A DNA stretch of 29,168 bases from a virus. Location of the stretch: positions 1 to 29,168 of the IMG/VR virus record IMGVR_UViG_3300050821_024086; one strand, given 5' to 3'. Positions 1 to 24,573 of this stretch are shown here, piece by piece. Each line of letters opens with the position of its first letter. Position 1 is the stretch's first letter. The position numbers and the translations under genes are program-made. The notes beneath the pieces were generated by a model. That model was not told where the DNA came from. It saw only the letters and a program-made list of their open reading frames with translations, and searched no databases.

Positions 1-339
1 TCAACGTTTCGCGTTGGCAATGAACGATTTGACTTCGTCGGAAACGTCGAGCGGTGCGTAATGGCCGAACTTCTCAACCCGGCAATCAGATTTGCGAACA
101 CAAATGAACCATGCACCCGTGTCCGGAAGCATGCCCGGTTCCTGGTACGAGCCCATCACGAGCCAAGATTCTCCTTGATTCGTGACGCGCAGCGGTTGTT
201 GTTTGGCAAGCTCGTCGCTCCCATAGAGGCGCTGCAGGATCAGCGTGGCAAATGTCCGCGCAATCTCCTCATTGTTCAGCAATGGGCCCAAAACCGCCGT
301 CGCGGCAGCGGTGAGTAACGCCTCTTCGCTATCGGCCAT
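1..339 (-). CDS. Probable NTF2-fold immunity protein
   Basis: This 112-residue soluble protein is complete, with its stop at the window edge. Seen: an N-terminal helical stretch, then a strand-rich core containing GESWLVMGSY, a PDTGAWFICVRKSDCRVEKF segment and a short polar tail. This order (helices, a W-x-V-x-G strand, then G-x-W/A-x-V-x-I-x-K followed by a small residue and 'I/VxxF') is what I know from NTF2-like immunity proteins of polymorphic toxin systems. The start has a clear ribosome binding site (AGGTGG, 4 bases before the ATG). It lies 39 bp downstream of the nuclease-type toxin gene in the same direction, the usual toxin-then-immunity order. Inference: it neutralises that toxin in the lysogen. 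The family call is from pattern memory only; a generic NTF2-like protein is the alternative. Confidence 0.6.
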   Translation of the reverse strand: MADSEEALLTAAATAVLGPLLNNEEIARTFATLILQRLYGSDELAKQQPLRVTNQGESWLVMGSYQEPGMLPDTGAWFICVRKSDCRVEKFGHYAPLDVSDEVKSFIANAKR

Positions 340-378: not shown

Positions 379-1203
379 TCAGTGAAACAACCATTCAAGG
401 TCTGATTTCTCGCCTGATTTGTATATTGTGACAAAATCCATCGGCGGCAGCCATTGACCTGGTAAAAATCCAAGGGTCACGATCTTGGGGCTTGGCGTAA
501 ACACGTGATCGCCGATCTGCGCCATGGGATAAACGTCGCCTTGTCTAGGGGTGTACCTCGGCGCGTTTCCCGTTTTTACCTCAATAAGGAGCAACCGCCC
601 GCCCACAGTTTTGACGGCAATGATATCGGCACGAGCCCTGGCACCGTTTCTCGCGATAAGGTCAACTTCGGTAACCACTTTGAGCCCCTTAGCGCGCATG
701 TACGCCGCGACCTGCGCAACCACTTGATCATGATAAAATCCTTGATAAGCGACATCTGTGAGTAGATTGCCGGGGTCAGTGTTCGCATTGCTTCCTCCGC
801 CGCCGGTCCATTCGCCGCCGCCGTGGTCGCCTTTCGGGATGCGAGGTTCGTCCGGGTTGAAGCCGGCTTTGGCGAAATGGACACGAGCAACCCGCCGCAC
901 CTGTCGGTCATCGAGGTCGCCGATGGGGATGTGCAGGCCGTATATTTGCGCCAGCGCGAGTTCGCCTTTGTCGAGCAAATCGGCGATATGCTGGCAGCGA
1001 TCGAACAGCCAATCACGATCGTCGTGCGCGGCGACGAGGCACTTCTGTATGCTCGCGGCCGCATCGCGTTCAACCGCACGAAAGCTGCCCGAACTGCGAC
1101 TGACGAGCACACAATCTGGACCGAGAATCGCGCCATTCGCGTCAATGCAAAGCCCTCGACTGGCCGCACCGCGCGGGTGCAGCCGCCGCATGTTGTCATA
1201 CAT
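379..1203 (-). CDS. Polymorphic-toxin-like protein with C-terminal PD-(D/E)XK nuclease domain
   Basis: The 274-residue protein has three parts. Residues 1-112 are a helical domain with RGLCIDANGAILG near the start and LALAQIYGLHIPIGDLDDRQ near residue 90, a module I associate with alphaproteobacterial phage or toxin proteins. Residues 115-137 are the linker FNPDEPRIPKGDHGGGEWT plus a Gly-rich stretch, nearly identical to the linker in the portal protein of this window. Residues 145-274 look like a restriction-endonuclease fold: D193, then E208-V-K210 on the next strand, then TPRQGDVYPMAQIGDHVF with Q221, as in Tox-REase domains. Inference: a DNA- or RNA-cleaving toxin neutralised by the next gene. 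It lies at the distal end of the late operon, after the lysis genes. No signal peptide is visible. The start ATG lacks a good Shine-Dalgarno sequence; a second ATG four codons on is possible. Confidence 0.7.
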   Translation of the reverse strand: MYDNMRRLHPRGAASRGLCIDANGAILGPDCVLVSRSSGSFRAVERDAAASIQKCLVAAHDDRDWLFDRCQHIADLLDKGELALAQIYGLHIPIGDLDDRQVRRVARVHFAKAGFNPDEPRIPKGDHGGGEWTGGGGSNANTDPGNLLTDVAYQGFYHDQVVAQVAAYMRAKGLKVVTEVDLIARNGARARADIIAVKTVGGRLLLIEVKTGNAPRYTPRQGDVYPMAQIGDHVFTPSPKIVTLGFLPGQWLPPMDFVTIYKSGEKSDLEWLFH

Positions 1204-1224
1204 GGAATCGACCGATTTCTAGGG

Positions 1225-1244
1225 GGCGCGAAACCAACCGCGCC
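1225..1244 (-). terminator. Hairpin between lysis lipoprotein and toxin gene
   Basis: GGCGCG pairs with CGCGCC around an 8-base loop in the 104-bp gap between the lipoprotein stop and the toxin start. There is no U-tract after it on the minus strand, so it could pause or protect RNA rather than terminate. Confidence 0.3.
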
Positions 1245-1307
1245 GGGGGGTTACTTCAACTGCTCAGACCCGCTGAGCGAACTGGATTTTGCCGAAGGCG
1301 CCGAGCG

Positions 1308-1601
1308 CTACTGGCACATCCTGAGATTGTCGCGCTCGGTCTCGTAGTCGCTCATCGCCGTGCGCAGGATGCTGTCGGGCGGCAGCGCCTGGACGGCATC
1401 GCCGATCTTCTTCAGGGTCGCGGCATCGTAATCGGCCGGCACCGGGCAGCGGGCGACCAGACCGGGACCGATCGGCTTGGTGACCAATTCGCCGTTGTCG
1501 AGCGACGGGGCCGGCTTTTCCTTTGGCCCGAACCAGCCACCGCCGCCGCAACCCGACAGCAGCGCCGCGACGGCGAGCGCCATTACCACCTTGAATCGCA
1601 T
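1308..1601 (-). CDS. Small lipoprotein of the lysis module, possible o-spanin-like
   Basis: The 97-residue protein starts at the ATG that begins a lipoprotein signal peptide: MRFKVVMALAVAALLSGC, lipobox LLSGC, then Gly-rich and Pro/Lys spacer residues. The upstream in-frame extension is Arg/Pro-rich and is probably not translated. The mature part has a CPVPADYDAATL segment and ends with a helix ETERDNLRMCQ. Small lipoproteins at the end of phage lysis cassettes are often Rz1-type outer-membrane spanins, and the Cys/Pro pattern is compatible. The sequence itself is not diagnostic. It follows the holin-like/lipoprotein gene by about 95 bp on the same strand. Confidence 0.5.
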   Translation of the reverse strand: MRFKVVMALAVAALLSGCGGGGWFGPKEKPAPSLDNGELVTKPIGPGLVARCPVPADYDAATLKKIGDAVQALPPDSILRTAMSDYETERDNLRMCQ

Positions 1602-1695
1602 CGAGACTCTGTCCCCGTTTGGCCCCGGCCGCACGATGCCGAGCGGGGCGGCGCGGATCAAGCGGCTTCGACGCGGTGCGGCTTCGGGTAGCAAC

Positions 1696-2157
1696 TCACG
1701 GCGCCGAAGGCAGTGTCGGTGCGACCGGGTTGACCCAAAGGCAGCCCGCGCCGGCCGCGGCCGAAGCCCGCGACGCCTCGCTCGCCGCCGAGGGGTCGCC
1801 GGCGCCGGCGGCCACGGCGCTCGCCGGGTTGGCGGCGGCCTGCGCCTCGCACATCGCCTGCTGCGTCACGGTGAGAACGATTTGCGCGTCGGTCTGGATC
1901 GTCGCCGGGCTCGGCGCGTTGGGGCCGGTACAGGCGCCGAGCGTGCTCGCCGCCAGCACCATCAGCGCCAGGACCTGGATCATCCCGCGCTCCTTGAGCA
2001 GGAACGCGGCGAGCGCGCAACCGGCGCCGATAAATTGTGTCAGCGGGCCGATATCGGTGTCGGAGAGATGGATGCCGGCGAGCGCCAACAGGGCACCCAT
2101 CCCGGCATAGCTCGACGGTTCGCTCAGGCGGGCGAGGAGGTAGGAAAGCATCGACAT
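1696..2157 (-). CDS. Holin-like membrane protein continuous with a lipoprotein reading frame
   Basis: The 153-residue frame contains two units. Residues 1-58 have two hydrophobic segments (about 17-30 and 41-54) separated by a short polar turn and end with KERG, like small alphaproteobacterial holins. Residue 59 is a methionine starting a typical lipoprotein signal, MIQVLALMVLAASTLGAC, followed by an Ala/Ser-rich tail. The gene starts 8 bases after AAAGGA. A second strong Shine-Dalgarno sequence lies exactly in front of Met59, so the lipoprotein (95 residues, from 1983) is probably also made alone. Inference: the full-length product spans the inner membrane as a holin or antiholin and the short product is exported as a lipoprotein. 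Its position next to endolysin supports a lysis role. Confidence 0.55.
   Translation of the reverse strand: MSMLSYLLARLSEPSSYAGMGALLALAGIHLSDTDIGPLTQFIGAGCALAAFLLKERGMIQVLALMVLAASTLGACTGPNAPSPATIQTDAQIVLTVTQQAMCEAQAAANPASAVAAGAGDPSAASEASRASAAAGAGCLWVNPVAPTLPSAP
1990..1995 (-). promoter_or_regulatory. Internal ribosome binding site for nested lipoprotein start
   Basis: AAGGAG lies six bases before the in-frame ATG at 1983-1981. The ATG begins a complete lipoprotein signal peptide in the middle of the holin-like frame. Sequence and spacing are optimal, arguing for a second translation start. Confidence 0.55.
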
Positions 2158-2178
2158 GCTGTTGTCCTTTCATGCAAA

Positions 2179-2197
2179 GGGCCGCGCGAGGCGGCCC
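2179..2197 (-). terminator. GC-rich hairpin before the holin-like gene
   Basis: GGGCCGC and GCGGCCC form a 7-bp stem with a 5-base loop in the 65-bp gap upstream of the holin-like gene. It is followed by TTT only on the minus strand. It is a weak terminator candidate or an RNA-stability element just ahead of the ribosome binding site. Confidence 0.35.
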
Positions 2198-2222
2198 GGG
2201 GTCGATCGGAATTTGGGAGGGT

Positions 2223-2435
2223 TCAGGCGAGGTCGGCGACGTAACCCGGCCGGCGATGGAGGGATGGTGGCGGATCGGCCAAGACCTCGCCGGAGCCGCC
2301 GCAGCGGTCGCAGATTTCCATGTGCTGGCCGAGAATGTCCGACGGATCGGGGCTACCGTCGTCGCGCCGGCGACGAGTACGCGGGATGCGACCTACGCCG
2401 CCGCAGCGCTCGCACGGTTTTGTGGCCGGGCTCAT
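2223..2435 (-). CDS. Small protein with two CxxCxGxG zinc motifs
   Basis: The 70-residue protein has two DnaJ-type knuckles, CERCGGVGRI near residue 8 and CDRCGGSGEV near residue 42, separated by an Arg/Asp-rich stretch. The two CxxCxGxG units could together bind one or two zinc ions. The ATG overlaps the endolysin TGA by four bases, so translation is probably coupled. Similar small proteins occur in many alphaproteobacterial phages beside lysis genes; function is unknown. The Arg-rich middle could contact nucleic acid, but nothing proves it. Confidence 0.6.
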   Translation of the reverse strand: MSPATKPCERCGGVGRIPRTRRRRDDGSPDPSDILGQHMEICDRCGGSGEVLADPPPSLHRRPGYVADLA

Positions 2436-3028
2436 GGGTTTGCGACGGCGCGACGCTGGTAGGCGGCGGCGAGCTTCGCGTCGTAGCCGTTCTCGGCCTC
2501 GCCCGGCCCGTTATAGGCGAGCGCGAACCCGGTCCAGTCATGGGCGCGCAGATAACGGTCGAGGCGATTGTACCGACAGAACGCGACGAACGCGGCCAGC
2601 TGACCGCCTTCGCTCGCGCACATCACCGCGACATAGTGATCGACATCGGGAAAATCGCAGGCGGCGTAGTTGAGCCCGAGGATCTGGAACATCCCCCAGC
2701 TGGCGCTTTGCAACGCCGCGGCCTGATCGAGCGCGATCGCCTCGGCGAGCCGGTCGTATTGGTGCGCCCCAGCGGCGCCATAGAGCATTCGGTCCCAACT
2801 CGCCGAGGAGATGTTGGGGTGGGCGGCGTCCCAGCGATGCTGCGTCAGCCGGCCGAAGACTTGCGCCTCGAAGAGGATTTTCGGGCGTTTGTCGGGGAGA
2901 AACCCGCCGCCGGCGCTCTCGATATCGCAGACCGCCTGGATCGCGGCCGGCTCGCACTGCATCCCGGCCGCCGCGGCGGCAATATCGTCCGGCCCGAGCG
3001 GCGTCGCCGCGCCCGTGAAGTCCATCAT
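2432..3028 (-). CDS. Endolysin, N-acetylmuramidase family
   Basis: The 198-residue enzyme should hydrolyse the glycan strand of peptidoglycan at lysis. Family signs (N-acetylmuramidase, PF11860-like) are IESAGGGFLPDKRPKILFE with E37 as likely catalytic acid, then FEAQVFGRLT, SASWGMFQILGLNY, and CRYNRLDRYLRAHDW ahead of FALAYNGPG. These follow the family order and nearly fill it, so there is no extra cell-wall-binding domain. No signal peptide is visible, so release should depend on a holin. Two adjacent ATG codons compete; AGGAG lies five bases before the first (3028). The gene is 22 bp after the coiled-coil membrane protein and overlaps the following small gene by ATGA. Confidence 0.88.
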   Translation of the reverse strand: MMDFTGAATPLGPDDIAAAAAGMQCEPAAIQAVCDIESAGGGFLPDKRPKILFEAQVFGRLTQHRWDAAHPNISSASWDRMLYGAAGAHQYDRLAEAIALDQAAALQSASWGMFQILGLNYAACDFPDVDHYVAVMCASEGGQLAAFVAFCRYNRLDRYLRAHDWTGFALAYNGPGEAENGYDAKLAAAYQRRAVANP

Positions 3029-3050
3029 TCGATCTCCTGTTGAGACGGCG

Positions 3051-3386
3051 CTAGCGCCGGTTCTGCTTCTGCACCAGCTCGGCGCGGATCCCGGCCAACG
3101 TGTCCATGACCCGTTCGAGAGCGGCGCGCATCTCGGCCTGAAACTCGCGGTCCTCGCGGGCGCGCTCGTCGAGCTCGCGCTCGACCACGGCGAGCCGCGC
3201 CTCGTGCCCGGCGAGCGCGACGCGATACTCGGCCCGCTGGGTGTCGACATCGCCGCGCAGACTGAGATAGCCGCCGAGAATGCCGCCGCCACCGGCGACG
3301 ATGACGACCCCGGCCTGCAACAGATGACCCAGCGTAATGTCGGGAGTGAAATGCGGATGCAGCATCGCCAGCAAATCGGTTCTCAT
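3051..3386 (-). CDS. Single-span membrane protein with coiled coil, holin- or spanin-like
   Basis: The 111-residue product (start at 3386, MRTDLLAMLHPHF) has one hydrophobic Gly-rich segment at about 18-38 (LLQAGVVIVAGGGGILGGYL). A long charged helix from about 40 to 105 follows, with many Arg and Glu residues and a heptad-like pattern. One membrane anchor plus coiled coil directly before the endolysin is the layout of an inner-membrane spanin or a class III-like holin; the sequence cannot separate the two. An upstream in-frame ATG at 3425 would overlap the fibre gene and add basic residues; I prefer 3386. A second holin candidate lies downstream, so this one may be the i-spanin. Confidence 0.5.
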   Translation of the reverse strand: MRTDLLAMLHPHFTPDITLGHLLQAGVVIVAGGGGILGGYLSLRGDVDTQRAEYRVALAGHEARLAVVERELDERAREDREFQAEMRAALERVMDTLAGIRAELVQKQNRR

Positions 3387-3400
3387 GGATTTGTCCTGGA

Positions 3401-4636
3401 TTAGAGCCGCGCGTCGGCGGTCCAATGGATGCGCAGCCCATTGCCGATCGCCGATGGCGTGAACGAGCTGGTGGCGGCGGCCTGAAAGCCGTTGAAGCCG
3501 ATCTGCGCGGCAATCGCGGCGACGTCCGCGCTCGCACCATTATCGACATTGCCCGACGCGCCTGTCGTCGGGCTGTAGAGGGTCACGGTCGAAGCGGCGC
3601 GCTTGGGCACCTTGAAGCGAACGCCGAAAGAATAAGCGGCGGCGCTGGTGCCCCAATAGCCGAAGAATTCCTGGCCGGTGCGGGCCAACGCCGTCCCCGG
3701 GACGATGCCGGGATCGTAGCTCTTTTCGTAGTAGCGCTGGCACAGCGCCAGCTCTTGCTGGACCGGCCGGCGCCGAAAAGGCGACGCCGCCGCGGCGATC
3801 TCGAGTTTTACATTGGTGATCTGGAAGGTGGCGTTGACCGTGGTCAGGATCGAATTGGTGAGCGCCGAGGTGCCGTAGAAATTGCTGCCCGCCCAGGTCG
3901 CGCCGGTGCCCTGATAGGTCGAGCCCGCGGCGATCGTGATGTAGAGATAGGCGCCGCCGGCATTGCCGCTGGTCACCCATGTGCCCCCGGTGTCGCCGGT
4001 GAAGCACGAACTCTCCGGCGTCCATGCGCCAGACGACGCGACCGTCTCGGCGTTCGGGAAGCTGCGCGTCTGCGCGAAGTTCTGCAGGCCCCAGCCATAG
4101 GTGTAGGAGGCGATCGACGACTTAACCTGCCACTGGCGGCAGAGTGTCGCCGCGCTTGCCGTGCTCAAGAGCGCGTCCTGGATATTGCCGGCCTCGATCG
4201 GGATGGCGATGACGAGATAGTCGCCCGCGTTGACCGCCGACGCCGCGGTCGTGGTCGTGCATTTGAGGCTATAGGCGTAGCCGGCCGGCGCGTCGGTGAC
4301 ACGCTGGCAGGAGACGACCGCCTTGGTCGTCGCGGTCGAGTTCAAGAGAACCTTGACGCCATCGACAACGTAGGCACTGAGCGACCCGGCCGAAGACGCG
4401 ACCGCCGAGCCTTCGTTCGCCTGGTCGATCTCCATCGTCGGGTTGATCAGCCGGTTGTCGAACACCGTCCCCAGCGACGCGCAGACGATGCCGGTCTGCG
4501 GGGTATCGCCGGTCACCGCCTGGCCGGCCGGGCAGGTCACGCCCGGCACATAGGCTTGCGCCAAGGCGGCTGGGCTTCCGGCGAATAGGGCGACAACGAA
4601 GAGGGCGGCGGCGCCGACAAGGCGCGGCGCGATCAT
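3401..4636 (-). CDS. Tail fibre or adhesin-like protein with Sec signal peptide
   Basis: The 411-residue frame starts at the ATG that overlaps the previous stop (ATGA). It begins with a signal peptide, MIAPRLVGAAALFVVALF then AGSPAALA, with a likely cut before QA. The body is Ser/Thr/Ala-rich beta sequence. A region near residue 300 reads PVQQELALCQRYYEKSYDPG, followed by aromatic strand segments; that ELxxCQRYYEK motif recurs in phage tail-fibre receptor-binding regions. Inference: distal fibre or receptor-binding protein, placed after the baseplate genes. An exported tail protein is unexpected, because virions assemble in the cytoplasm. It could be a host-surface adhesin carried by the phage. 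The longer open frame upstream to 5599 is antisense-type shadow and is not used. Confidence 0.6.
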   Translation of the reverse strand: MIAPRLVGAAALFVVALFAGSPAALAQAYVPGVTCPAGQAVTGDTPQTGIVCASLGTVFDNRLINPTMEIDQANEGSAVASSAGSLSAYVVDGVKVLLNSTATTKAVVSCQRVTDAPAGYAYSLKCTTTTAASAVNAGDYLVIAIPIEAGNIQDALLSTASAATLCRQWQVKSSIASYTYGWGLQNFAQTRSFPNAETVASSGAWTPESSCFTGDTGGTWVTSGNAGGAYLYITIAAGSTYQGTGATWAGSNFYGTSALTNSILTTVNATFQITNVKLEIAAAASPFRRRPVQQELALCQRYYEKSYDPGIVPGTALARTGQEFFGYWGTSAAAYSFGVRFKVPKRAASTVTLYSPTTGASGNVDNGASADVAAIAAQIGFNGFQAAATSSFTPSAIGNGLRIHWTADARL

Positions 4637-5076
4637 GCGGCGATCCACTGATTGCTCCCGATATAGATGACGCGCAGCGCCGCGTAGAGGATGCCGAGCC
4701 CGACCGAGGCCTGGCCGTCGATGGTCTGGCCGCTGGGCGCGGCGATGGTCAGCGTGAAGCTGCCGGTGGTGGCGAGGTACTTGAAGGCGTGGGCCTCGCC
4801 GGTACGCGGGCTTGACGGCAGGGTGAAGGTGGTCGCGGCCGGGGTGGTCGGCGCCCAAGCAATGAGGTCGTCGGTGAGATTCACCGCCTGCGCGCCGGTA
4901 CCGGTGACGACCCGGACATTCTGCCGCGGCCGGATCACCCAGCCGCCGACGGCGACGCCGTCCTGGGCCTGGAGGCTCCAATCGTCGGTGTTGAGCACCA
5001 ATTCGCCTTGCGGCCCGGTATAGGAAGCCACCTGGGCGGTGGTGCCACGCGCCCATTGCACCTGAGTGTGGGACAA
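4633..5076 (-). CDS. Tail fibre subunit with Mtd-N-like domain
   Basis: The 147-residue protein opens with QWARGTTAQVASYTGPQGEL followed by VLNTDDWSLQAQDG. This matches the short beta module known from the N-terminus of the Bordetella phage major tropism determinant and many tail fibres (RRGTTA...GELxxDTDxxxLxVHDG). The rest is a compact beta domain ending in IYIGSNQWIAA, typical of fibre-tip or trimer segments. It is coupled by ATGA to the signal-peptide fibre gene and follows the split g15-like gene after a hairpin-containing gap. Inference: it links the baseplate hub to distal fibres. Length is short for a complete fibre. Confidence 0.6.
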   Translation of the reverse strand: MSHTQVQWARGTTAQVASYTGPQGELVLNTDDWSLQAQDGVAVGGWVIRPRQNVRVVTGTGAQAVNLTDDLIAWAPTTPAATTFTLPSSPRTGEAHAFKYLATTGSFTLTIAAPSGQTIDGQASVGLGILYAALRVIYIGSNQWIAA

Positions 5077-5154: not shown

Positions 5155-6000
5155 TCAGAGAGAGCTGCCGAGGTTGATGTCGTATCCGCTGACGGCGGTA
5201 ATCGACGCGAGATCGGCCTGCGCGGCGATGCTGGTGCCGACGATGCCCCAATCCTGGGCGATGCCGGCGGCGAGCGCGGCGATGACGTTGACCGTCATCC
5301 CGCCGGTGCCGAGCAGCGTGTAGCTGTAGGGCGAAACACCGGCGAGACCTTGCAGCGCCTGACCAAAGATGTTGAACGCGGGCAGCTTCACGAAGATCGA
5401 GTGGCCGATAAAGCTCGCCGGGTAGGCATAGCGGAACAGCGACGGGTCGTTGGGCCCGAAACGCGCGAACGCGGCGCCGCTGGCATGGCTCCCGATCGCG
5501 GTGCCGTAAGCGCCGCGCCGCAGATAGGTGAGGCTGTATTTGTTGGCGGCGGCGAGCGTCGCCGTCGCGAAGGACAAAAGCTCCCCGTCGCAAAAGCACA
5601 GCGTGACATAGGCATCGGCGTCGGCGGTCGTGCCGGAGAGCAATTGCCCGGCGGACTCAGTCAAGTCGACCGCCAGCGTATGGGTCGTGTCGGGGTCGGT
5701 GGCCGCCGGAAGGCTCGCGGTCAGCACGCCCTGACGACCGCCCTGGTAGATGGTTCCGGCCAGCGCGTAGGTGTTGCCGTCGGTCGAGACCCAGACCTGG
5801 CAGCCGCCCCAATCGGCGCCGCCGCTGGCGATGATCCACACCTCGACCGAGCCGCCGGTCAACCCCGCGGTCGGCTCGAAGATGATCGGCGCGTTGGTGT
5901 TGCCGGGATCGACAAACGGGTTAAGCGCCGCGCCAGCCGTCGCTTGCTTCGCGTGCGCCACCGCGGTACCGACACCGATCGGGATTATCGTGCCGGTCAC
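5155..6000 (-). CDS. C-terminal half of split GTA g15-like tail protein
   Basis: The 281-residue protein starts at GTG (6000), whose GTGA overlaps the previous stop. It has beta-sandwich character with VEVWIIASGGADWGGCQVWV, then YGTAIGSHASGAAFARFG and FIGHSIFVKLPAFNIFGQAL. Such segments form the last third of the single large baseplate protein (g15, roughly 1300 residues in RcGTA). Here the corresponding function seems divided between two coupled genes. Inference: it forms the distal baseplate and docks the fibres encoded next. There is no frameshift debris at the junction; both ends are clean, so the split looks natural. Confidence 0.65.
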   Translation of the reverse strand: MTGTIIPIGVGTAVAHAKQATAGAALNPFVDPGNTNAPIIFEPTAGLTGGSVEVWIIASGGADWGGCQVWVSTDGNTYALAGTIYQGGRQGVLTASLPAATDPDTTHTLAVDLTESAGQLLSGTTADADAYVTLCFCDGELLSFATATLAAANKYSLTYLRRGAYGTAIGSHASGAAFARFGPNDPSLFRYAYPASFIGHSIFVKLPAFNIFGQALQGLAGVSPYSYTLLGTGGMTVNVIAALAAGIAQDWGIVGTSIAAQADLASITAVSGYDINLGSSL

Positions 6001-7364
6001 GGCGTCACCCCAGGGATTTCCTCGGCGGTGATGGTCAGCTCGCCGTTGCCGTCTTCCTCGACCTGGAGGATCCGCACCGCGGCGTTGGCGAGGCCGAGCG
6101 TCGCGTCGCTGATCAGGACGATGTCCATCGGCTCCAACAGCGCGTAGCGGATTCCAAGTTTGAACTTATAGGTGTTGCGCACGTATTGCCGGCGCTGCAG
6201 CAGCAGCTGCGCAGCGACCGAGGCGCTGGTGGCGTTGGTGAAGCCGTGCGCCTGGATCGAGGCCTCGCTGCGCAACCCATAGAGGTCGATCGCGCCCTGG
6301 TCGAAGACCGCGATGACCTGTGGGTTGTAGCTGTTGCCGGCATCCATGTACTCGACCGAGAGCCAGTTGGTCGCCTGCGCCGGGTCGGCGCGGGTCAGCA
6401 GCACCGGATCGCTGCCCCCTGCCCCGCCTTGCGACCACGGCAGGAAATCGCCGTCGCCGAGGCTGTACTGCCAAATGAGGTTGGGCGCCCAGCTCGCGCC
6501 GTTAGCCGACAGGGCCTGGTCGCCATAGGGGATGAATTTGAGCACGGCGCCCGACCACACCACCGCCGAAGCAGTTAGTTGCGCCAGCTCCTCGAGCCAG
6601 CGCGCGGCCGGCTGCTGCTTGTCGAGCAGCAGCGATATCGCCAACTGCGCCGCCTGGCAGTAATTGCCCCAATCGGCGAGCGCGCCCGCTGTGTCGAGAT
6701 TGGCGGCGGGAAACCCGGCGCCGTAGCGCGGATCGGTCAAGAGCGCGGCGACGATCAGGTCGGGACGGGCATCGTTGGGAAAGCTCGGTCCCGCGGTGCC
6801 GGCGGCGAAGCCGGTAATCTCGAACGAGATGTCGGGCAACGCCGAGGACGAGCCGAGATTGAGCGGCGTGCCGGTGACGTAGCAGGTGCCGGAATAACCG
6901 ATCACCGGCTGGTTGACGTCGGAGCTGGCGAAGACCGGGTCGGGCGCCTGTCCGTCGGCGCCGGAATAGCCGTTGAGCCCGACCGCGGCGAGGCCGGCGG
7001 AGATCCCGCCATTGGCCCAGATGCGGTTGTGACCGCCGATGCCGAGAGACGAGCCGGTGAACGACACCGGACCCTGGCAGACGCCGAAGGCGACATCGAC
7101 CGAATTTTGCTGGTTCGCACCTTTCTTCCCGCCGCTGCTACCACCAAGGCCCTTGCCGCCGGCATGGCCGCCATTGCCGGTGCGGCTGACGAAATTCCAG
7201 AACTCGAGCAGATTGACCGCGATCCGATGCGTGCCAAAGCAGATGAAGATCGGGCTGCCGGCCTGGCTGGTGTTGTAGCGCAGCGAGCCGAGGGTCGGAT
7301 TGCTGAAGGCGTTGACGAACGGGGTCGGTCCGCCGCCCTTGCCGGTCGGTGCCGTGTCAGTCAT
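5997..7364 (-). CDS. Baseplate tail protein, Phage-tail_3 family (g15-like N-terminal part)
   Basis: I start this at ATG 7364 (MTDTAPTGKGG), which overlaps the NlpC/P60 stop by 8 bases; a longer start at 7418 would add 18 residues with no family signal. Product length is 455. Residues about 1-115 are a Gly/Ser-rich opening with SPIFICFGTHRIAVNLLEFW. The region after residue 250 (AARWLEELAQLTASAVVWSG...LKFIPYGD) and the later LGIRYALLEPMDIVLISD...ILQVEEDGNGELTITAEE match the Phage-tail_3/GTA TIM-region pattern. Role: central baseplate component that binds the hub and carries the fibres. It is markedly shorter than classical g15 and lacks the long TIM-barrel part. Confidence 0.72.
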   Translation of the reverse strand: MTDTAPTGKGGGPTPFVNAFSNPTLGSLRYNTSQAGSPIFICFGTHRIAVNLLEFWNFVSRTGNGGHAGGKGLGGSSGGKKGANQQNSVDVAFGVCQGPVSFTGSSLGIGGHNRIWANGGISAGLAAVGLNGYSGADGQAPDPVFASSDVNQPVIGYSGTCYVTGTPLNLGSSSALPDISFEITGFAAGTAGPSFPNDARPDLIVAALLTDPRYGAGFPAANLDTAGALADWGNYCQAAQLAISLLLDKQQPAARWLEELAQLTASAVVWSGAVLKFIPYGDQALSANGASWAPNLIWQYSLGDGDFLPWSQGGAGGSDPVLLTRADPAQATNWLSVEYMDAGNSYNPQVIAVFDQGAIDLYGLRSEASIQAHGFTNATSASVAAQLLLQRRQYVRNTYKFKLGIRYALLEPMDIVLISDATLGLANAAVRILQVEEDGNGELTITAEEIPGVTP

Positions 7365-15270: not shown

Positions 15271-16761
15271 TCAGCCATTGCCGATATTGGTGATGACGCC
15301 CATCGCGAAGGGGGCGTAGACCGCCAACACCTCCTCGGCATAGACGCCGACCTGGCGCTGCCGGGTCACCACCGGCCAGTCGATCTGGTAGTAATCCTGC
15401 CGGGTCTTGATTTCGGCGACGTTGGGCACCTCGTTCGACTGGTATTGCACCGGCAGGTTCTCGGCCCAGCCAACGATCGTCCCGGGCGGGACGCGGGGAT
15501 GGATGCGAATGGGGATGCGCAGGCCGCCGTTGAGCGCAAACGGGTTGAAGTAGAACGACACCGCGCCCGCCGCGGCGAGGTCATAGGGGTTGCCGTCGTC
15601 GCCGACGTTGTAGCGCAGCAGCGGCGCGGAGGCATTCGACAGCACCTTGGCGGTGATGTTCTTCAGCTCCTGAACATTGACGTAAAGCACGGTCGGCGAG
15701 AGCTGGAAATTGTTCCACATGGTCTGGAACATCGTGTCGATCTCGTTGACCGAGCCGCGTCCAGACGAGGTCAGCGGCGTGCCGGCGCCGGAAGTGCCGG
15801 TTGGCATGGTCGCGACATAGGCGTTCGATCCAGTCTTGAATGCCGTCGTCAAGAGGCCGTCATAGGCATAGCTGGGGTTGGCCGAGTTGTCGGCGGTGAT
15901 CGCCGATTGCGCCTGGCCGGTGCCGGCGAGCGGCGCGGAGAACGCGGCGCTGTTGATCGTGGTGATCGCCTCGAGCTTTTCGGTGCCGGTCGAGCTACTG
16001 ACGTACCAGGCATAGGCGACGGCGCCCTGCACCGGGGCGACGCTGGCGAAGAGGGTCTGGCCCAGGGTGACGGCCTGGCTCGCCTCGGCGCTGATATTCG
16101 ACGAGCCGCCGGCGAGCGTGTAGCTCTTGCCGTCGGCGCCGGTGATGTTCTTGGTGGTGGCAAGACCGCCCGCGAGGCTCGAGTTCTGATAGCCCTCGAG
16201 GGTAAGCGCGACGATTTTCACGAAGTACGTCGCGGCTGGCAAGGTCGCGCCGGTTCCCGAGGCCGACAACACCGGCGTCCCCGGCGTCCCAAGCGCGAGC
16301 GAGGCGTTGCCGCCAAGGATCGCCATCTCCTCTTTCAGCATCATCTTTTGCAGCAGGCGGAAGGTCATCCGCGACTGGATGTCCTCGAAATTTCGGCCGG
16401 CGTTGATCGCCTCGTAGGTCGCCGCGTCCTCCTCGCCGATGGTGACGAAGGTCGCCGACTTGGTGGCGGTCGTGTACGACATCTGCGCCGAGCGCTGGCC
16501 CTCCGGGACCCAGCCCATCGAGTCGAAGCCGGAGCCGACGAGCGCCGTCACCTGGCGCCAATTGGTCGCCGTACCGGTGCCGCCGCCGACACGCGGGATG
16601 ACGTTGCGGATCGGCGTGACGAACGGGTAGAGGTTCTTCGCCGGCGCCTGCAAATCGAACGCGACCAGGCCGGTGCCGGTGGTGATCGTCTTGGCGATCT
16701 GGTCCGAAGGCGAGCGCAGCGCGCCCTTGACCAGATCCAATGTGTCTTGTGTCGGGTTCAT
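15271..16761 (-). CDS. Major capsid protein with inserted Ig/FN3-like domain
   Basis: The 496-residue protein reads as an HK97-fold capsid subunit. An N-terminal arm precedes PFVTPIRNVIPRVGGGTGT, then SYTTATKSATFVTIGEED, RMTFRLLQKMMLKEEMAILG (spine helix region), and near the end NVAEIKTRQDYYQIDWPVVT and VLAVYAPFAMGVI. Residues about 156-290 break this pattern with GTPVLSASGTG, AATYFVKIVALTLEGYQ and VAYAWYVSSSTGTEKLEAIT, an Ig/FN3-like surface insert. No long scaffolding region is attached. An intrinsic-terminator-like hairpin and a strong GGAGGA ribosome binding site precede it, and a repeat separates it from the protease gene. Confidence 0.83.
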   Translation of the reverse strand: MNPTQDTLDLVKGALRSPSDQIAKTITTGTGLVAFDLQAPAKNLYPFVTPIRNVIPRVGGGTGTATNWRQVTALVGSGFDSMGWVPEGQRSAQMSYTTATKSATFVTIGEEDAATYEAINAGRNFEDIQSRMTFRLLQKMMLKEEMAILGGNASLALGTPGTPVLSASGTGATLPAATYFVKIVALTLEGYQNSSLAGGLATTKNITGADGKSYTLAGGSSNISAEASQAVTLGQTLFASVAPVQGAVAYAWYVSSSTGTEKLEAITTINSAAFSAPLAGTGQAQSAITADNSANPSYAYDGLLTTAFKTGSNAYVATMPTGTSGAGTPLTSSGRGSVNEIDTMFQTMWNNFQLSPTVLYVNVQELKNITAKVLSNASAPLLRYNVGDDGNPYDLAAAGAVSFYFNPFALNGGLRIPIRIHPRVPPGTIVGWAENLPVQYQSNEVPNVAEIKTRQDYYQIDWPVVTRQRQVGVYAEEVLAVYAPFAMGVITNIGNG

Positions 16762-16785
16762 CAGGTTATTTCCTCCACTCGGGCA

Positions 16786-16813
16786 ATAAAAAAACCCGCC
16801 GGAGTGGCGGGTT
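16786..16813 (-). terminator. Intrinsic terminator just before the capsid gene
   Basis: On the minus strand AACCCGCC-ACTCC-GGCGGGTT is followed by TTTTTATT. It sits between the protease stop and the capsid ribosome binding site, only about 25 bases before the capsid ATG. It may terminate, attenuate or protect the capsid message. Confidence 0.7.
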
Positions 16814-16827
16814 GGGATTCTCCGTTC

Positions 16828-16903
16828 GTCACCCCCGCGAAAGCGGGGGGCCAGGGCGACCGTTCCGTCGCTTGCCCTGGATTCCCGCTTTCGCGGGAAT
16901 GAC
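16828..16903. repeat. REP-like inverted palindrome pair
   Basis: GTCACCCCCGCGAAAGCGGG and the inverted CCCGCTTTCGCGGGAATGAC flank CCAGGGC...GCCCTGG. The 76-bp element is related to the composite repeats elsewhere in the window and fills most of the protease-capsid gap. Confidence 0.75.
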
Positions 16904-16914
16904 GAGCATCTACA

Positions 16915-18087
16915 TCATCGGCCTGAAAACGGCCGGATTGGATTGGCGTGCGCGGCCTTGATGAGGGCCAGAGTGCGCTCCTCATCGCTCATCCGGGCGA
17001 GCGCGGCGGCGACATCGTTTGGCGTGACGGCGGCATAGCCGGCATCGTCGCGCTTCGAGATGCTCGTGCCCGCCGAGCGGGCCACGGTCAGCGGCGGCAG
17101 CGGCACGGCGGCAATCTCCTCGACCCGTTTCGCCAGCGCGTCGAGGCGCGGCAGGATCTCACCGGCGAACGCCTTCATCAGATCGCCGGCGCGGGCGGAT
17201 TTATCGGTGTCGGTCTCGGCGTCATCTTCGTCGGGCACGAAACTATCGCAGCGCGCGCCGGCGCGGCAGATCGCGTCGTGCGCTTCCTTGAGGTGGCCGA
17301 GCATTGTCTTGGATGGCCGGCGCTCCGCCGCCTTGCAGCAAGCGCCGGCGGTCAGCTCCTTGAGGCAATCGTGGATGTGATCGAGCGCGGACTGGTCGGT
17401 GTCCGCGGTTGACGCCTTGGCGCTCATCCCCGGCGGGCCGGCGGGATCGATCTTCGCTTTCCAGGCGGCGACGATACGCGATCTGATCTGGTCGAGCTCG
17501 CCGGCGGTGTAGGGCTCGGCGTGGCTCGCCATATGGATGAAGGCCCAGGTGGCGCGGATATGACTCGCGCTGTCGAGCGGGTAGCGCTTCCTGCCGTCAG
17601 CCTGATAGCCGGGATCGGCGTAGTCCATATCACCGCCCATCTGCTCATCGGCCATTTCATGATCGCCTGCCGCCTTCCAGCAATCGAATACCGCCTCGGG
17701 GTTGGCCGGGCGATCGACCAGGCTGATCTCGGTGAGGCTGAGGCCGGTGATGACGTTGCGGTCAGCGGGGTCGCGTGACTTGACCCTGCCGCCGACCGAG
17801 AAGCCCTTGTAAACGCCGGTCGTCACCTTGTCCCAGGCGCGCGGATCGACGATGCGGGCGCCGACATAGAGGCCCTTGTCGTCGACCGAGGCCTCCTCGG
17901 CGATGCCGACCGCCGACATCTGGTGCATCTCGCGGATGTTGGCGAATTTCAGATAATCGGCGAGCGCCGCGGCGAGCGCGTCGCGGGTGATGATCTCGCC
18001 CTGGTCGTCCTCGGCGTCGGTTGAGGCATAGCCCCAGACCATCCGCTCTTGGGCATCGACCTTGGCGATCGGAGCGTAAAAGCGCAT
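16915..18087 (-). CDS. Prohead serine protease with C-terminal extension
   Basis: I choose ATG 18087 (MRFYAPIAKVDAQERM) because AAGGA lies 10 bases before it; the GTG at 18105 lacks one. Length is 390. Residues 1-140 are an HK97/XkdF-like protease: MVWGYASTDAEDDQGEII, H55 in REMHQMSAVG, LYVGARIVDPRAWDKV, S97 in YKGFSVGGRV and SLTEISLVDRPANPEA. A DUF6582-like helical segment follows (KRYPLDSASHIRATWAF...ELDQIRSRI). Then comes a Cys-containing stretch (CLKELTAGACC, CRAGARCD) and a helical C-terminus that may act as scaffold. It cleaves capsid precursors during maturation. It is preceded by the immunity island and followed by a repeat and the capsid gene. Confidence 0.8.
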   Translation of the reverse strand: MRFYAPIAKVDAQERMVWGYASTDAEDDQGEIITRDALAAALADYLKFANIREMHQMSAVGIAEEASVDDKGLYVGARIVDPRAWDKVTTGVYKGFSVGGRVKSRDPADRNVITGLSLTEISLVDRPANPEAVFDCWKAAGDHEMADEQMGGDMDYADPGYQADGRKRYPLDSASHIRATWAFIHMASHAEPYTAGELDQIRSRIVAAWKAKIDPAGPPGMSAKASTADTDQSALDHIHDCLKELTAGACCKAAERRPSKTMLGHLKEAHDAICRAGARCDSFVPDEDDAETDTDKSARAGDLMKAFAGEILPRLDALAKRVEEIAAVPLPPLTVARSAGTSISKRDDAGYAAVTPNDVAAALARMSDEERTLALIKAAHANPIRPFSGR

Positions 18088-18201
18088 GCGATTTGGTTCC
18101 TTCACAGGATTTGGTTGCTTTGCGGCCGGTCTCTTGAACGGGCCGGTGCCTCGTTCGCTGGCCCGTCTAGGAATAAAGGTCGGCAGGCGGCGAACGGGTA
18201 C

Positions 18202-18519
18202 TTACGGCACGATCTGCAGTTGCACGTCTATGTCACGGCCATGCTGAGCACGAAAATCCTCTCGTCCCAGATCAAGCCCCAGTTTCGCCACCTTGACCTC
18301 ATCGACGACCGTCCGCGGTGCGTCTTCGAGGCCGCGGACGAGGATCGTGAGAGGCGGATTTACGGCATTGATGCCACCCCAAATCACCGAGTCGTTTAGC
18401 GCATTGGCGTTATGGCCATGCCATTCAGGCGCACCAAGCTCGGGAAGCAGAGCGCAATAGAAGTCGTCGGCCGTCTTCCACCCGCTTGCATCGAGTTCGA
18501 TGATTTGCATCGCAACCAT
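18202..18519 (-). CDS. Barstar-family-like protein
   Basis: The 105-residue protein shows the barstar pattern: strand IIELDASGWKT, helix ADDFYCALLPELGAPEWHG with the HG-N-NALND segment (HGHNANALNDSVIWGGIN), then the strand PLTILVRGLED. A helix VDEVKVAKLG and a final strand VQLQIVP complete it. Barstar binds barnase-type ribonucleases and blocks the active site. Here the gene lies third in a run of small genes behind the portal-toxin fusion. It suggests protection from an RNase toxin, but no barnase-like toxin is visible in the window, so it may be an orphan immunity gene acquired against rival elements. Codon use is less GC-rich than the structural genes. Confidence 0.75.
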   Translation of the reverse strand: MVAMQIIELDASGWKTADDFYCALLPELGAPEWHGHNANALNDSVIWGGINAVNPPLTILVRGLEDAPRTVVDEVKVAKLGLDLGREDFRAQHGRDIDVQLQIVP

Positions 18520-18585: not shown

Positions 18586-18972
18586 TTAGATTGGGTTCGC
18601 GGCCACGTGCGGATTGATAGATAGGTTTGCGCGCTTTTCGTCGGACGTCATTTTGGTTTGGTCAGGAGTGAGTTCGATACCGGCGCGCTCAGTCGCCATA
18701 TGGGCTTGGTACTTACGGTCGAGTCCCAAAAAAAAATTGTGAATGTCGGGCGGAAACGGGGTTGCGCAATCAATCTTTGTACGATCCTTTCCGCACTCCA
18801 ATCCTGTATTTCTATCGAAGCTGTGGTTGTCTTGGGTATGAATTCGTCGAGCCTGAATGGTGCCTTCATCTATAGCCGTGACGAGGCAGACCAAGCTCGC
18901 ACCATTGGTGCTTCTGGCATGAAAGATGTCACCCACAGCCAGTTGCCGTAGCGTGCGCTCGCGGTTAGTCAT
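18586..18972 (-). CDS. Small unassigned protein of the immunity island
   Basis: The 128-residue soluble protein begins TLRQLAVGDIFHARSTNG, continues ASLVCLVTAIDEGTIQARRI, a beta-rich opening. The middle DIHNFFLGLDRKYQ and a charged tail with LTPDQTKMTSDEKRANLSI follow. I know similar sequences as conserved hypotheticals scattered in alphaproteobacteria but know no function. It lies between the DUF7336-like and barstar-like genes, in the same direction, with lower GC than the head genes. Position makes an immunity or toxin-modulating role the first guess. No membrane segment or signal peptide is visible. Confidence 0.55.
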   Translation of the reverse strand: MTNRERTLRQLAVGDIFHARSTNGASLVCLVTAIDEGTIQARRIHTQDNHSFDRNTGLECGKDRTKIDCATPFPPDIHNFFLGLDRKYQAHMATERAGIELTPDQTKMTSDEKRANLSINPHVAANPI

Positions 18973-19001: not shown

Positions 19002-19562
19002 TCAGCGCCGCAAAGCCGCATCCGTTATCGGCTCGTCATGCGTCCGGCCGTCGTCTCGAACGGTGACAAAGCCGTTAACCATGCTGGTTTGGTCGATCGT
19101 GCCTTCGGTAATCACGAAGCCGTCGGGGTGCTCGCGAAACCCAGGTTGGTCGCACACCAGCTCGATCCCCTTCTCGGCATTTCCGCGGCTTGTGTAGGTC
19201 CCGATCAGAATTTCTTGTGCGATTCCCCATTCGTTGACATAGCGATGCCATAGCACCCAATAGGTCTCAGGCATCGGCTCGGCGCTCGGGAAAAACACGC
19301 GTTTGCCGGAGCCGGGAACGAAGTTGGGGTCCGGTTCCTCATCGCCCCAAAGTGAGGCAAAGCCCTCAAGCCAAGACGTTTCGTCTATCGGACCATCGCA
19401 GATTTCGAAGCCTTCCGGATGGTCGCGAAAGCCCGGTTTGTCGCGCAACAGGTCGAGCGCTTCCTCCGCCTTCTCCTTGGTCGAGAAGATTCCGAGCAGC
19501 TTGTCGTGATCCTCGCGGCCGTCGTAGCGCAGATGCCACAGATCGTAGGTTACGGGGTTCAT
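19002..19562 (-). CDS. Tandem-duplicated DUF7336-like protein, candidate immunity protein
   Basis: The 186-residue protein is an internal duplication. Residues about 6-72 (YDLWHLRYDG...LLGIFSTKEKAEEALDLLRD) and about 100-168 (YWVLWHRYVN...LIGTYTSRGNAEKGIELVCD) align throughout. Both carry PGFRDHPEGF or PGFREHPDGF, then DETSWLEGF or DQTSMVNGF. This unit (strand with W-H, K-L-IG-x-Y, a helix, PGFxxxPxGF) is DUF7336-like, a small domain often next to toxin genes. It starts 18 bp after the portal-toxin stop with AGGA eight bases before the ATG, so it is the best candidate for specific immunity. A duplicated unit could neutralise two toxins or bind a dimer. Confidence 0.68.
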   Translation of the reverse strand: MNPVTYDLWHLRYDGREDHDKLLGIFSTKEKAEEALDLLRDKPGFRDHPEGFEICDGPIDETSWLEGFASLWGDEEPDPNFVPGSGKRVFFPSAEPMPETYWVLWHRYVNEWGIAQEILIGTYTSRGNAEKGIELVCDQPGFREHPDGFVITEGTIDQTSMVNGFVTVRDDGRTHDEPITDAALRR

Positions 19563-19580: not shown

Positions 19581-21380
19581 TCAAATCCAATCGTCTTCCG
19601 GCAGCAAGATAGATCGGGGATCACGAAACGCGCGATCGCCCCATTTCTGTATCTGGCGATATTCGCGATCCGGAAGACGCCAATTGCCGCGCCCATATTT
19701 TTCGTCCATCAGACGCTTGGCAAAATCACGGCCATTCTCGCCGACATAGGGGCGGTTGCCGCGGGCCCATTTTGGAACATTTTTGGCGCCTTCTGCCCCG
19801 CTCACCCGCGGGATCGGCTCCTGGAATGGGCGTGTTACCTCGTTCGGCGGCTCTTCAAACACAAAAGGCGGCCGCGCGGCGAACGGCAAAAGTTCCTGCG
19901 CGAGCGTGGGACGCGGTTGAACCGTCGTGCCACTTCCGTCCGTCCACTGGCCGCCGCCGGGGTTGCCGGGCGGAACGCGCGGCTCGTCCGGGTTGAAATT
20001 GGCTCTGGCGAATGGCGCGGGAGCCGCCGATCGCTTCCCGACAGCCCCGGCGGCGCCGAGTGGCATTGCGCCGTGGGTCCCGAAGATCAGCGGCAGCTCG
20101 CCGCCGGGGACGGGGTCGAGGCCGAGGAGGTTGCGAGCCTCGTTGATCGCGTAGATGCCGCCGCGGACATAGGTGTCGAGGATCTTGGCCTGCTCGGCCG
20201 GGTCGGCCGGGCGCTCGACGGCCCAGGCGAATTCGAGGTCGGGTTCGCCGATGACATCTTGAATCACGTGGTCGATGAGCCGCTTGACCCAGCCCATCAG
20301 CGGCGCCTCGCCCTCGTCGAGCGCGGCCTCCTGCGAGGCCTGGGCGGTGGCGCGGTTGAGCTGGCGGGTAAAGGCGGTCGGCGGCAGCGAAAACGCGTAG
20401 CAGACGATGCGCGCCAGCCACTCGTCGAAATCGTCCTTGTAGGGCGCCTCCTTGAAGGCCTGGTACTTGGCGCCGCCCGGCCCCCAGATGAGCCGCGAGC
20501 GCGAGCCGGTGTTGCCGGCGAGGACGCTGTCGAACCATTCCTGGAACTGGGTGATCTGCTCGACATTCCAGCCGTCGGGCGCGTTGAGCAGGCCGGGCGG
20601 GACATTGCCCTCGGTGAAATGCTGCAGTTGCATCACCTGGCGGCGCAGCGCGATGTTGACGGTCATCACGATCTGCTCGACCGGGCCGAAGCCGTAGGCC
20701 TTGTGCGGGCGCGGGTTGCGCGGCAGATAGAGCAGCTCGTCGGCGGTCAGCAGCTTCCACGGCCGCCCGTGGATCACCTGCTCAAAGGCCGGGGCCGGCG
20801 GACGCGGACGGCGCCCGGTCTCGTCGACCAGCACCTTGATCGTGGCGCCATCGACGACATCGAGGCCGATGAGGGCGCCGCCGCGGTTGCGCCGCAGCTC
20901 CAGCGCCGGCGCGTCGAGCACCAGCAGGTCTTCGAGCAATTCGCGCAGCCAGGTGGCGAAGGGCCGTTCGCCGTCGGGCCGGCGCCAGAATTGAGCCATC
21001 CGTACGGCGCGTTGGGCCGCGGCGGGCCGTGACGCCGTGTCGGCGCGGGGCCGGATCGTCCAGTCGAGCTTTTCGAGTTGATCCTTGCGGGTCTCGATCG
21101 CCAGCCGGGTGATGTCGTGCCCGTCAGCGAGACGGCGCAACTCCTCGAACGAGATCGGCTCGTAAGAGCGCGGCGTGTAGATGGTGTTGACGCCGACCGG
21201 GAAGTCCCACACCCGAACTTGCTCGGGCTCGGCCGGCGCCAGCGGGTAGCCGGGCGAGAAGATGCCCTGGCCGGGCTGGTAGACATCGCGGAACTGCGCT
21301 TCGAGGCCCTGTTGGCCCCAGCTATAGGTGGCGGTTAGCCGGGTCTTGGCGCCGCCGAGCGAGACATCGGGTTCGGGCAT
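19581..21380 (-). CDS. Portal protein with C-terminal polymorphic-toxin-like extension
   Basis: I start at ATG 21380 (MPEPDVSLGGAKTRL); upstream in-frame codons lie in the intergenic palindrome. Length is 599. Residues 1-460 are a HK97-type portal: FEELRRLADGHDITRLAIET, KDQLEKLDWTIRPR, LVLDAPALELRR, LLTADELLYLPRNPRPHKAY, MQLQHFTEGNVPPGLL, FDEWLARIVCYAFSLPPTAF. From residue 461 comes the linker FNPDEPRVPPGNPGGGQWT, a Pro-rich spacer, and residues about 531-599 GAKNVPKWARGNRPYVGENG, DFAKRLMDEKYGRGNW, QIQKWGDRAF. That tail resembles C-terminal tips of RHS and other polymorphic toxins. Inference: a toxin domain carried on the portal, as MuF toxins are carried on head proteins. The next gene is a candidate immunity protein. 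The portal itself is intact. Confidence 0.78.
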   Translation of the reverse strand: MPEPDVSLGGAKTRLTATYSWGQQGLEAQFRDVYQPGQGIFSPGYPLAPAEPEQVRVWDFPVGVNTIYTPRSYEPISFEELRRLADGHDITRLAIETRKDQLEKLDWTIRPRADTASRPAAAQRAVRMAQFWRRPDGERPFATWLRELLEDLLVLDAPALELRRNRGGALIGLDVVDGATIKVLVDETGRRPRPPAPAFEQVIHGRPWKLLTADELLYLPRNPRPHKAYGFGPVEQIVMTVNIALRRQVMQLQHFTEGNVPPGLLNAPDGWNVEQITQFQEWFDSVLAGNTGSRSRLIWGPGGAKYQAFKEAPYKDDFDEWLARIVCYAFSLPPTAFTRQLNRATAQASQEAALDEGEAPLMGWVKRLIDHVIQDVIGEPDLEFAWAVERPADPAEQAKILDTYVRGGIYAINEARNLLGLDPVPGGELPLIFGTHGAMPLGAAGAVGKRSAAPAPFARANFNPDEPRVPPGNPGGGQWTDGSGTTVQPRPTLAQELLPFAARPPFVFEEPPNEVTRPFQEPIPRVSGAEGAKNVPKWARGNRPYVGENGRDFAKRLMDEKYGRGNWRLPDREYRQIQKWGDRAFRDPRSILLPEDDWI

Positions 21381-24137: not shown

Positions 24138-24269
24138 GTCATTCCCGCGGAAGCGGGAACCCATGCGCACGGAGTTCTGCCGATTGAGGTGCAAGCGTTG
24201 GTGCTAGGCTTCTCAGACGCCGGTGTTCATGGGTTCCGGGTTCATCGCTGTGCGATGCCCCGGAATGAC
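24138..24269 (-). repeat. Composite palindromic repeat, copy 2
   Basis: This 132-bp element begins GTCATTCCCGCGGAAGCGGG on the plus strand and ends with a CATGGGTTCCGGGTTCATCG block and GCGATGCCCCGGAATGAC. It is in the same orientation as copy 3. Its last bases (GGAATGAC) supply the ATG I assign to the GIY-YIG gene. Confidence 0.75.
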
Positions 24270-24573
24270 AGAAAGAGGAGAGCGATCGATCTACTACGTC
24301 TATCTCCTGGCCAGCCGGCGATATGGCACCCTGTACTGCGGCGTGACGAACGATCTCGTTCGGCGCGTTTGGGAACATAAGACCAAATTGCTGCCCGGCT
24401 TCACCGCCAAATACGGGGTCGACCGCTTAGTTTGGTTTGAACTTCACAGCGACGTCACCGTAGCGATCGCCCGCGAGAAACAGATCAAGAAATGGCGCCG
24501 TGACTGGAAAATCGCATTGATCGAGGGCGAAAACCCCGATTGGCGCGATCTATACGACACGATCGCGCAGTGA
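24265..24573 (+). CDS. GIY-YIG nuclease-domain protein
   Basis: The 102-residue protein is the minimal GIY-YIG nuclease of the UPF0213/YhbQ type. Seen: YYVYLLASRRYGTLYCGVTND with Y11-V12-Y13 for GIY and Y24-C25-G26 for YIG, the catalytic Arg in DLVRRVWEHK, KLLPGFTAKYGVDRLVWFEL and E71 in AREKQIKKWRRDWKIALIE. I take ATG 24265; an earlier in-frame ATG lies inside the repeat and adds no domain. It runs against the late operon and lies between two directly repeated composite palindromes. Such small nucleases occur in many copies in alphaproteobacterial genomes and are often repeat-linked. Inference: a mobile unit not needed by the phage; role in repeat spread is unproven. Confidence 0.8.
   Translation: MTERGERSIYYVYLLASRRYGTLYCGVTNDLVRRVWEHKTKLLPGFTAKYGVDRLVWFELHSDVTVAIAREKQIKKWRRDWKIALIEGENPDWRDLYDTIAQ

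Follow-up and report, generated by a model that had tools for sequence, protein, structure and literature searches.

The portal gene of the phage analysed here probably carries a polymorphic toxin-immunity system, in which a toxin-like tip shared with Rhs proteins is joined in frame to the portal core and is followed by a putative cognate immunity gene. From this arrangement we infer the toxicity of the tip, its location in the virion, and its release, delivery and target. An earlier note, made from the DNA letters without database searches, had proposed that the portal ends in a polymorphic-toxin-like tip, and this proposal came through every computational test that was run. The window, meaning the whole stretch of DNA analysed, is a single virus record of 29,168 bases, and its late genes form a block on the minus strand. 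The features discussed below are as follows.

27080-25698, minus strand: terminase large subunit
24142-21521, minus strand: pectate-lyase-like spike
21380-19581, minus strand: portal open reading frame (599 codons, open throughout)
20016-21380, minus strand: portal core, residues 1-455, HK97/RcGTA-type (PF04860, phrog_2662 and Rcc01684 profile match)
19941-19997, minus strand: linker FNPDEPRVPPGNPGGGQWT, residues 462-480 (F462-T480), the cassette junction
19821-19940, minus strand: Pro-rich spacer, predicted to be disordered (AF2)
19581-19820, minus strand: toxin-like tip, residues about 521-599, of an Rhs C-terminal family without a named Pfam or NCBIfam model
19002-19562, minus strand: putative cognate immunity gene with two tandem DUF7336 units (PF24024, 1.4e-8)
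18586-18972, minus strand: second immunity-type gene (orphan), which fits 'DCAVK' tips (homology to L006, L021 and L100)
18202-18519, minus strand: barstar-family immunity gene (orphan; PF01337, 2.5e-8)
16915-18105, minus strand: prohead protease, the downstream border of the cassette (PF14550 / PF04586)
379-1203, minus strand: second carrier, comprising an N-terminus without assignment, linker FNPDEPRIPKGDHGGGEWT and a nuclease-like tip
1-339, minus strand: Imm-NTF2-2 immunity gene of the second carrier (PF15631, 8.1e-11)

A Pfam search places Phage_portal (PF04860) over residues 99-420 of the carrier (E 1e-24), and the score of 87.8 bits against a curated cut-off of 39.1 makes the protein a member of this family. 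The phrog_2662 match covers residues 68-458. A portal-family profile matches the RcGTA portal Rcc01684 (PDB 6tba) with E 1e-65 and reaches the last residue of Rcc01684, beyond which the window portal extends for about 145 residues in the same frame. The earlier estimate that the portal ends at about residue 460 was close, with the core end now placed slightly earlier, at about residues 442-455; this is where most of 80 relatives stop and where the aligned RcGTA chain in the PDB ends. Only one portal gene was found in the window. Its product carries a portal domain only and no RHS repeats, and searches for a MuF domain (PF04233 / PF06152) in the portal gave no match up to E 1. The portal gene is followed by three small genes, the prohead protease, a phrog_13692 protein in the major-capsid position, and then a block comprising a head-tail adaptor, neck and tail proteins and an endolysin. 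Separately, an opposite-strand ORF between the spike and terminase genes (24223-24573, plus strand) is GIY-YIG nuclease-like by eye and is flanked by SRESGNP/AFAGMT-type repeats, which also occur at about 16740-16985.

The linker FNPDEPRVPPGNPGGGQWT is 19 residues long and follows the portal core in frame. DNA alignments with the sister phage L005 and with orphan portal fragments stop at 19933-19941. The earlier note had called the linker toxin-type; an origin as an RHS-type feature was rejected because the linker is missing from the Rhs homologues and recurs on more than 100 phage ORFs. In the AF2 model, pLDDT values of 33-45 over portal residues 444-531 indicate a disordered tether, after which comes a separate folded domain; overall confidence in the full-length model is low (pTM 0.46), and we draw on it for these two features alone.

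The tip is about 75 residues long, and structure prediction yields an independently folding domain of three helices, with moderate confidence for the tip alone (pLDDT 73). Its suspected resemblance to RHS-type proteins is borne out by two matches: the tip is 61.6% identical over 72 residues (E 6e-22) to the C-terminal end of an Rhs-family protein that occurs in two Pseudomonas phage records, and 50% identical (E 5e-11) to the last part of an RHS-repeat protein from Methylorubrum extorquens AM1. Other homologues come from genomes labelled Ca. Aerophobetes, Clostridia, Methylobacteriaceae, Planctomycetota and Propionispira, and from one further virus contig. An alignment of eight tips has as invariant residues E28, G30, DFAKRLMD, K41, Y42, G43 and E53, all of which are present in the window tip. 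Between the window and L093 the tip has a dN/dS of 0.10, with a dS of 2.3 that is high and near saturation. Searches of Pfam, NCBIfam and PHROG with the tip gave no match, and hence no portal-only domain, which the earlier note had named as the finding that would overturn its proposal. A PDB sequence search gave a chance match only and Foldseek gave none. Because no fold or family was matched, we claim no catalytic mechanism for the tip.

The nearest homologue of the tip (71-73%) ends a 246-residue non-portal protein in L093 (4688-5428) that has its own DUF7336 gene. By eye, this carrier directly precedes an NlpC/P60-like tail gene. In L088, a Methylobacteriaceae MAG contig, positions 1267-4871 hold a terminase, a portal whose tip is a CdiA-CT RNase A, and a small gene after it; further on lie an orphan linker with a window-type tip and two DUF7336 genes, and then a gene that again resembles the first small one. 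Samples drawn from the order of L088 (298 and 398 genomes) and from its phylum (399) yielded almost no additional cases.

The gene at 19002-19562 begins 18 bases past the portal stop, and its first unit has the Pfam match to DUF7336 while the second is seen as a matching half. DUF7336 homologues lie directly 3' of the tip in L083, L084, L085, L086, L088, L090, L091 and L093 (as a tandem pair in the case of L086 and L088). None was found downstream of the tip in L089 and L092, exceptions that count against the proposal. The tip and its DUF7336 neighbour occur together in Rhs, orphan and phage contexts in Pseudomonas, Methylorubrum, Propionispira and a Ca. Aerophobetes MAG. Judged from sequence, this is a toxin/immunity arrangement that has moved from Rhs proteins to the portal or in the reverse direction. 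The earlier identification of this neighbour as the immunity partner is strengthened by the presence of its family beside Rhs tips as well, while the view of it as a single gene gives way to a region of three genes (19562-18202).

The product of the gene at 18586-18972 shows 73%, 55% and 44% identity to the product of the gene directly after the DCAVK tips in L006, L021 and L100, respectively. The barstar at 18202-18519 is 49% identical to barstars that adjoin barnase-type tips in L105 and L106. A ribonuclease match was not found in the window, so the barnase-barstar pair is incomplete there; it is complete in L105, where a portal C-terminal fragment ends in a barnase-family ribonuclease that is followed by barstar. 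The window array is thus a putative cognate immunity gene together with two genes predicted to fit the tips of other phages. Polymorphic toxin loci are known to contain such groups of immunity genes (PMC3482391).

A comparison with 80 related viral loci reveals how the tail is distributed. The portals of most relatives end at residues 441-455, and about ten of the 80 run through a linker of the same kind into tips that are unrelated to the window tip. Relatives that are about 80% identical either lack a tail or bear another tip. Homologues of the window immunity-type genes occur in 7 of the 10 tailed relatives versus 1 of the 70 tail-less ones. The earlier note had held that relatives carrying the same tail without an immunity gene would count against it, and the opposite was seen, with relatives lacking both or carrying other tails. 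Between the window and the sister phages, DNA homology of about 80-85% extends as far as the linker, disappears there, and returns at the protease start (18087-18103). The GC content of the cassette is 0.52-0.59 versus 0.65-0.70 in the flanks.

Several relatives hold traces of exchange. A second portal C-terminus piece follows the main portal in L008, L010 and L014, and in L008 and L010 this piece continues via the linker into another tip. Over their common parts L010 and L031 are 99.7% and 99.3% identical, and L031 is without exactly the L010 stretch enclosed by the two portal repeats (449 bases, 91% identical), so that one tip is swapped for the other. The L031 portal is frameshifted and may be an assembly collapse of L010, and this case is used as supporting evidence only. 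The tails of L007 and L074 are broken, and only an immunity-type gene is kept.

Other observations concern the content of these loci. In L008, an orphan portal C-terminal fragment (5864-6637) has a DPBB_1 end (lytic transglycosylase, RlpA-like), and the gene at 6645-7085 has an apparent signal peptide, as would be expected for a periplasmic immunity protein against a cell-wall toxin. The L014 portal (1064-3073) carries a 207-residue tip that resembles a muramidase-type effector by eye and has no Pfam match; the next gene product has an apparent signal peptide, and the second portal fragment comes after it. The tail-less relatives L013, L016, L026 and L046 have a long gap between portal and protease (median 3.6 kb) with spike- or lyase-like genes inside, and in the window such genes are located before the portal.

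A scan for the linker returned 76 viral loci, and together with the earlier loci these hold 114 linker ORFs, 92 of them unique. The unique carriers comprise 27 full portals, 12 portal C-terminal fragments and 53 proteins with other N-termini, counts that are not frequencies given that the loci were picked by the linker. All ten long linker carriers that were scanned match Phage_portal and represent at least three divergent lineages; two of these ten end in RNAse_A_bac (CdiA-CT RNase A domain). Among portals the linker is joined to more than ten unrelated tips. Metagenomic contigs supply most of the tip-bearing portals, and cultured phage records yielded none; cultured relatives have portal-MuF and portal-Nudix fusions. 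Runs of small carriers occur in L100, L104, L106, L118, L154 and L162, with short helical N-termini (e.g. IRTLAGPDEDELLRQRRAEIAAIRRDLE...), the linker and differing tips, each with its own downstream gene.

Tips and downstream genes usually travel together. Among 92 non-redundant tips in 40 clusters, the downstream genes are homologous in 114 of 141 same-tip pairs versus 6 of 3600 different-tip pairs. When genes were shuffled over carriers in 2000 trials, the mean was 4.5 and the maximum 14 versus the 114 observed, a permutation value to be taken as descriptive, since pairs drawn from related contigs are partly dependent on one another. For same-tip pairs whose N-termini are not detectably related, 38 of 57 have homologous downstream genes. 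Domain homology, pairing with immunity families, modular exchange and conservation are all present in these data, as are the features by which polymorphic toxins are recognised, namely exchangeable unrelated tips, a tip-specific downstream immunity gene and a tip in common with Rhs proteins.

The window also contains a carrier that is not a portal. The linker match in the product of 379-1203 has a value of 5.5e-9, and its tip (ADIIAVKT..LLLIEVKTG) is PD-(D/E)xK-like by eye and homologous to the L148 tip. Together with the Imm-NTF2-2 gene at 1-339 this is a second putative toxin-immunity pair of the same phage. It sits after the endolysin, and its GC content is low too (0.52-0.56).

We propose that a cassette comprising the linker end, spacer, toxin domain and cognate immunity gene became fused in frame to the crown-side C-terminus of the portal. 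Portals of this fold are dodecamers with clip, stem, wing and crown (PMC7296036), and the C-terminal domains of the P22 portal reach into the capsid (PMC4992974). Because of this dodecameric fold and the P22 precedent, the tips are predicted to hang inside the head around the DNA channel. If the C-terminus of the window portal likewise faces the capsid interior, up to twelve tethered toxin domains would surround the DNA exit channel. A release mechanism for a portal-tethered toxin is not visible in the sequence, and the toxin must be freed or act in place; most likely the domains would be freed, perhaps by a prohead protease cut at the linker or at ejection, and would then travel with the DNA or spill at lysis. 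Cells without the immunity gene would be harmed, and the phage or lysogen would gain over its competitors. The DUF7336 protein would shield the producing cell, the two extra immunity-type genes would shield against the tips of related phages, and tips would be exchanged when the portal gene recombines with orphan portal-fragment cassettes.

Three other explanations were weighed against this proposal. The tip might be a host-takeover or anti-defence effector that is injected with the DNA, with neighbours that regulate or chaperone it and no role as a weapon against competitors. Portal fusions to PBECR, 2H, InPase and Nudix domains have already been read in this way (PMC5512222, PMC9503650), and the portal-MuF and portal-Nudix fusions of related cultured phages fit the same pattern. 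However, homologues of the window tip end Rhs proteins rather than phage effectors, the neighbouring genes belong to immunity families (barstar, Imm-NTF2-2), and the many tip types exchanged include CdiA-CT RNase A and barnase. We regard the injected effector as unlikely.

About equally improbable is a toxin that acts free in the producing cell or after lysis, as in bacteriocin-like killing or exclusion of co-infecting phages. The portal would then merely provide a highly expressed late ride, with the tip clipped off before or during assembly. The prohead protease gene directly after the immunity genes agrees with this, as do similar cassettes that phages of this kind bear on carriers other than portals. 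The immunity genes lie in the same late operon as the portal, with gaps of 18-100 bases, and a sigma-70 promoter scan for their separate (lysogen) expression, which is weak as a test, found none. Yet the portal has been chosen repeatedly, in three divergent lineages, which suggests that location matters, and non-portal carriers are also found among virion genes (L093, beside the tail gene noted above). A functionless tail, left by recombination and since decayed, is a more remote prospect still. Broken tails do exist in L007 and L074, but the window has an intact 599-codon frame, every invariant tip residue, a low dN/dS relative to L093 and an intact adjacent immunity gene. A portal-borne toxin-immunity system therefore remains our preferred reading. 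A wider class can be put forward more tentatively, at somewhat less than even odds: phages, including relatives of gene transfer agents, may carry up to twelve exchangeable portal toxin domains as a ring at the DNA exit channel, release these on ejection of the genome, and gather, in an array beside the portal, genes for immunity to one another's tips.

The classification of polymorphic toxins follows their carriers, and MuF proteins are the sole phage-head carrier that we found described in the open literature as a toxin-immunity system. If the portal is indeed a carrier, this would constitute a delivery route with defined copy number and position, and it would account for groups of mutually unrelated immunity genes beside soil-phage portal genes. 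New toxin-immunity pairs could then be found simply by reading past the linker in portal genes.

By its logic, the nearest known system is that of the MuF polymorphic toxins of temperate phages (Jamet 2017, PMC5576092; Bxa, PMC11699363; also Apk2), which like the window portal have a variable C-terminal toxin domain and a small immunity gene directly downstream. Both carriers are head proteins whose toxin domains are predicted to be in the capsid; the MuF protein is encoded beside the portal, and the window carrier is the portal itself, with a distinct linker. MuF toxins are defined by the MuF domain, which the window portal lacks, and membership in this family was rejected on this ground. The expected copy number also differs, at up to 12 for a portal versus 1-2 for the MuF protein gp7 in SPP1.

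Rhs/CDI toxins share with these phages the same tip with DUF7336, the RNAse_A_bac domain of CdiA-CT, orphan cassettes and immunity arrays, but their carrier is a secreted or surface filament rather than a virion portal. The closest solved relative of the core, the dodecameric RcGTA portal Rcc01684 (PDB 6tba), has no tail and ends at the core end. The reported portal fusions to PBECR, 2H, InPase and Nudix (Iyer 2017, PMC5512222; PMC9503650) share with the window an enzymatic domain on the portal that is predicted to be packaged and injected; in the accessible portions of these papers, polymorphic exchange with paired immunity genes is not described for portals. No earlier description of a portal-borne polymorphic toxin-immunity system was found in the open literature. 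Effector domains on portals are not new, whereas a portal that carries a polymorphic toxin-immunity system with Rhs/CDI-type tips appears to be, and this arrangement suggests that some phages may arm the DNA gate of their own particles.
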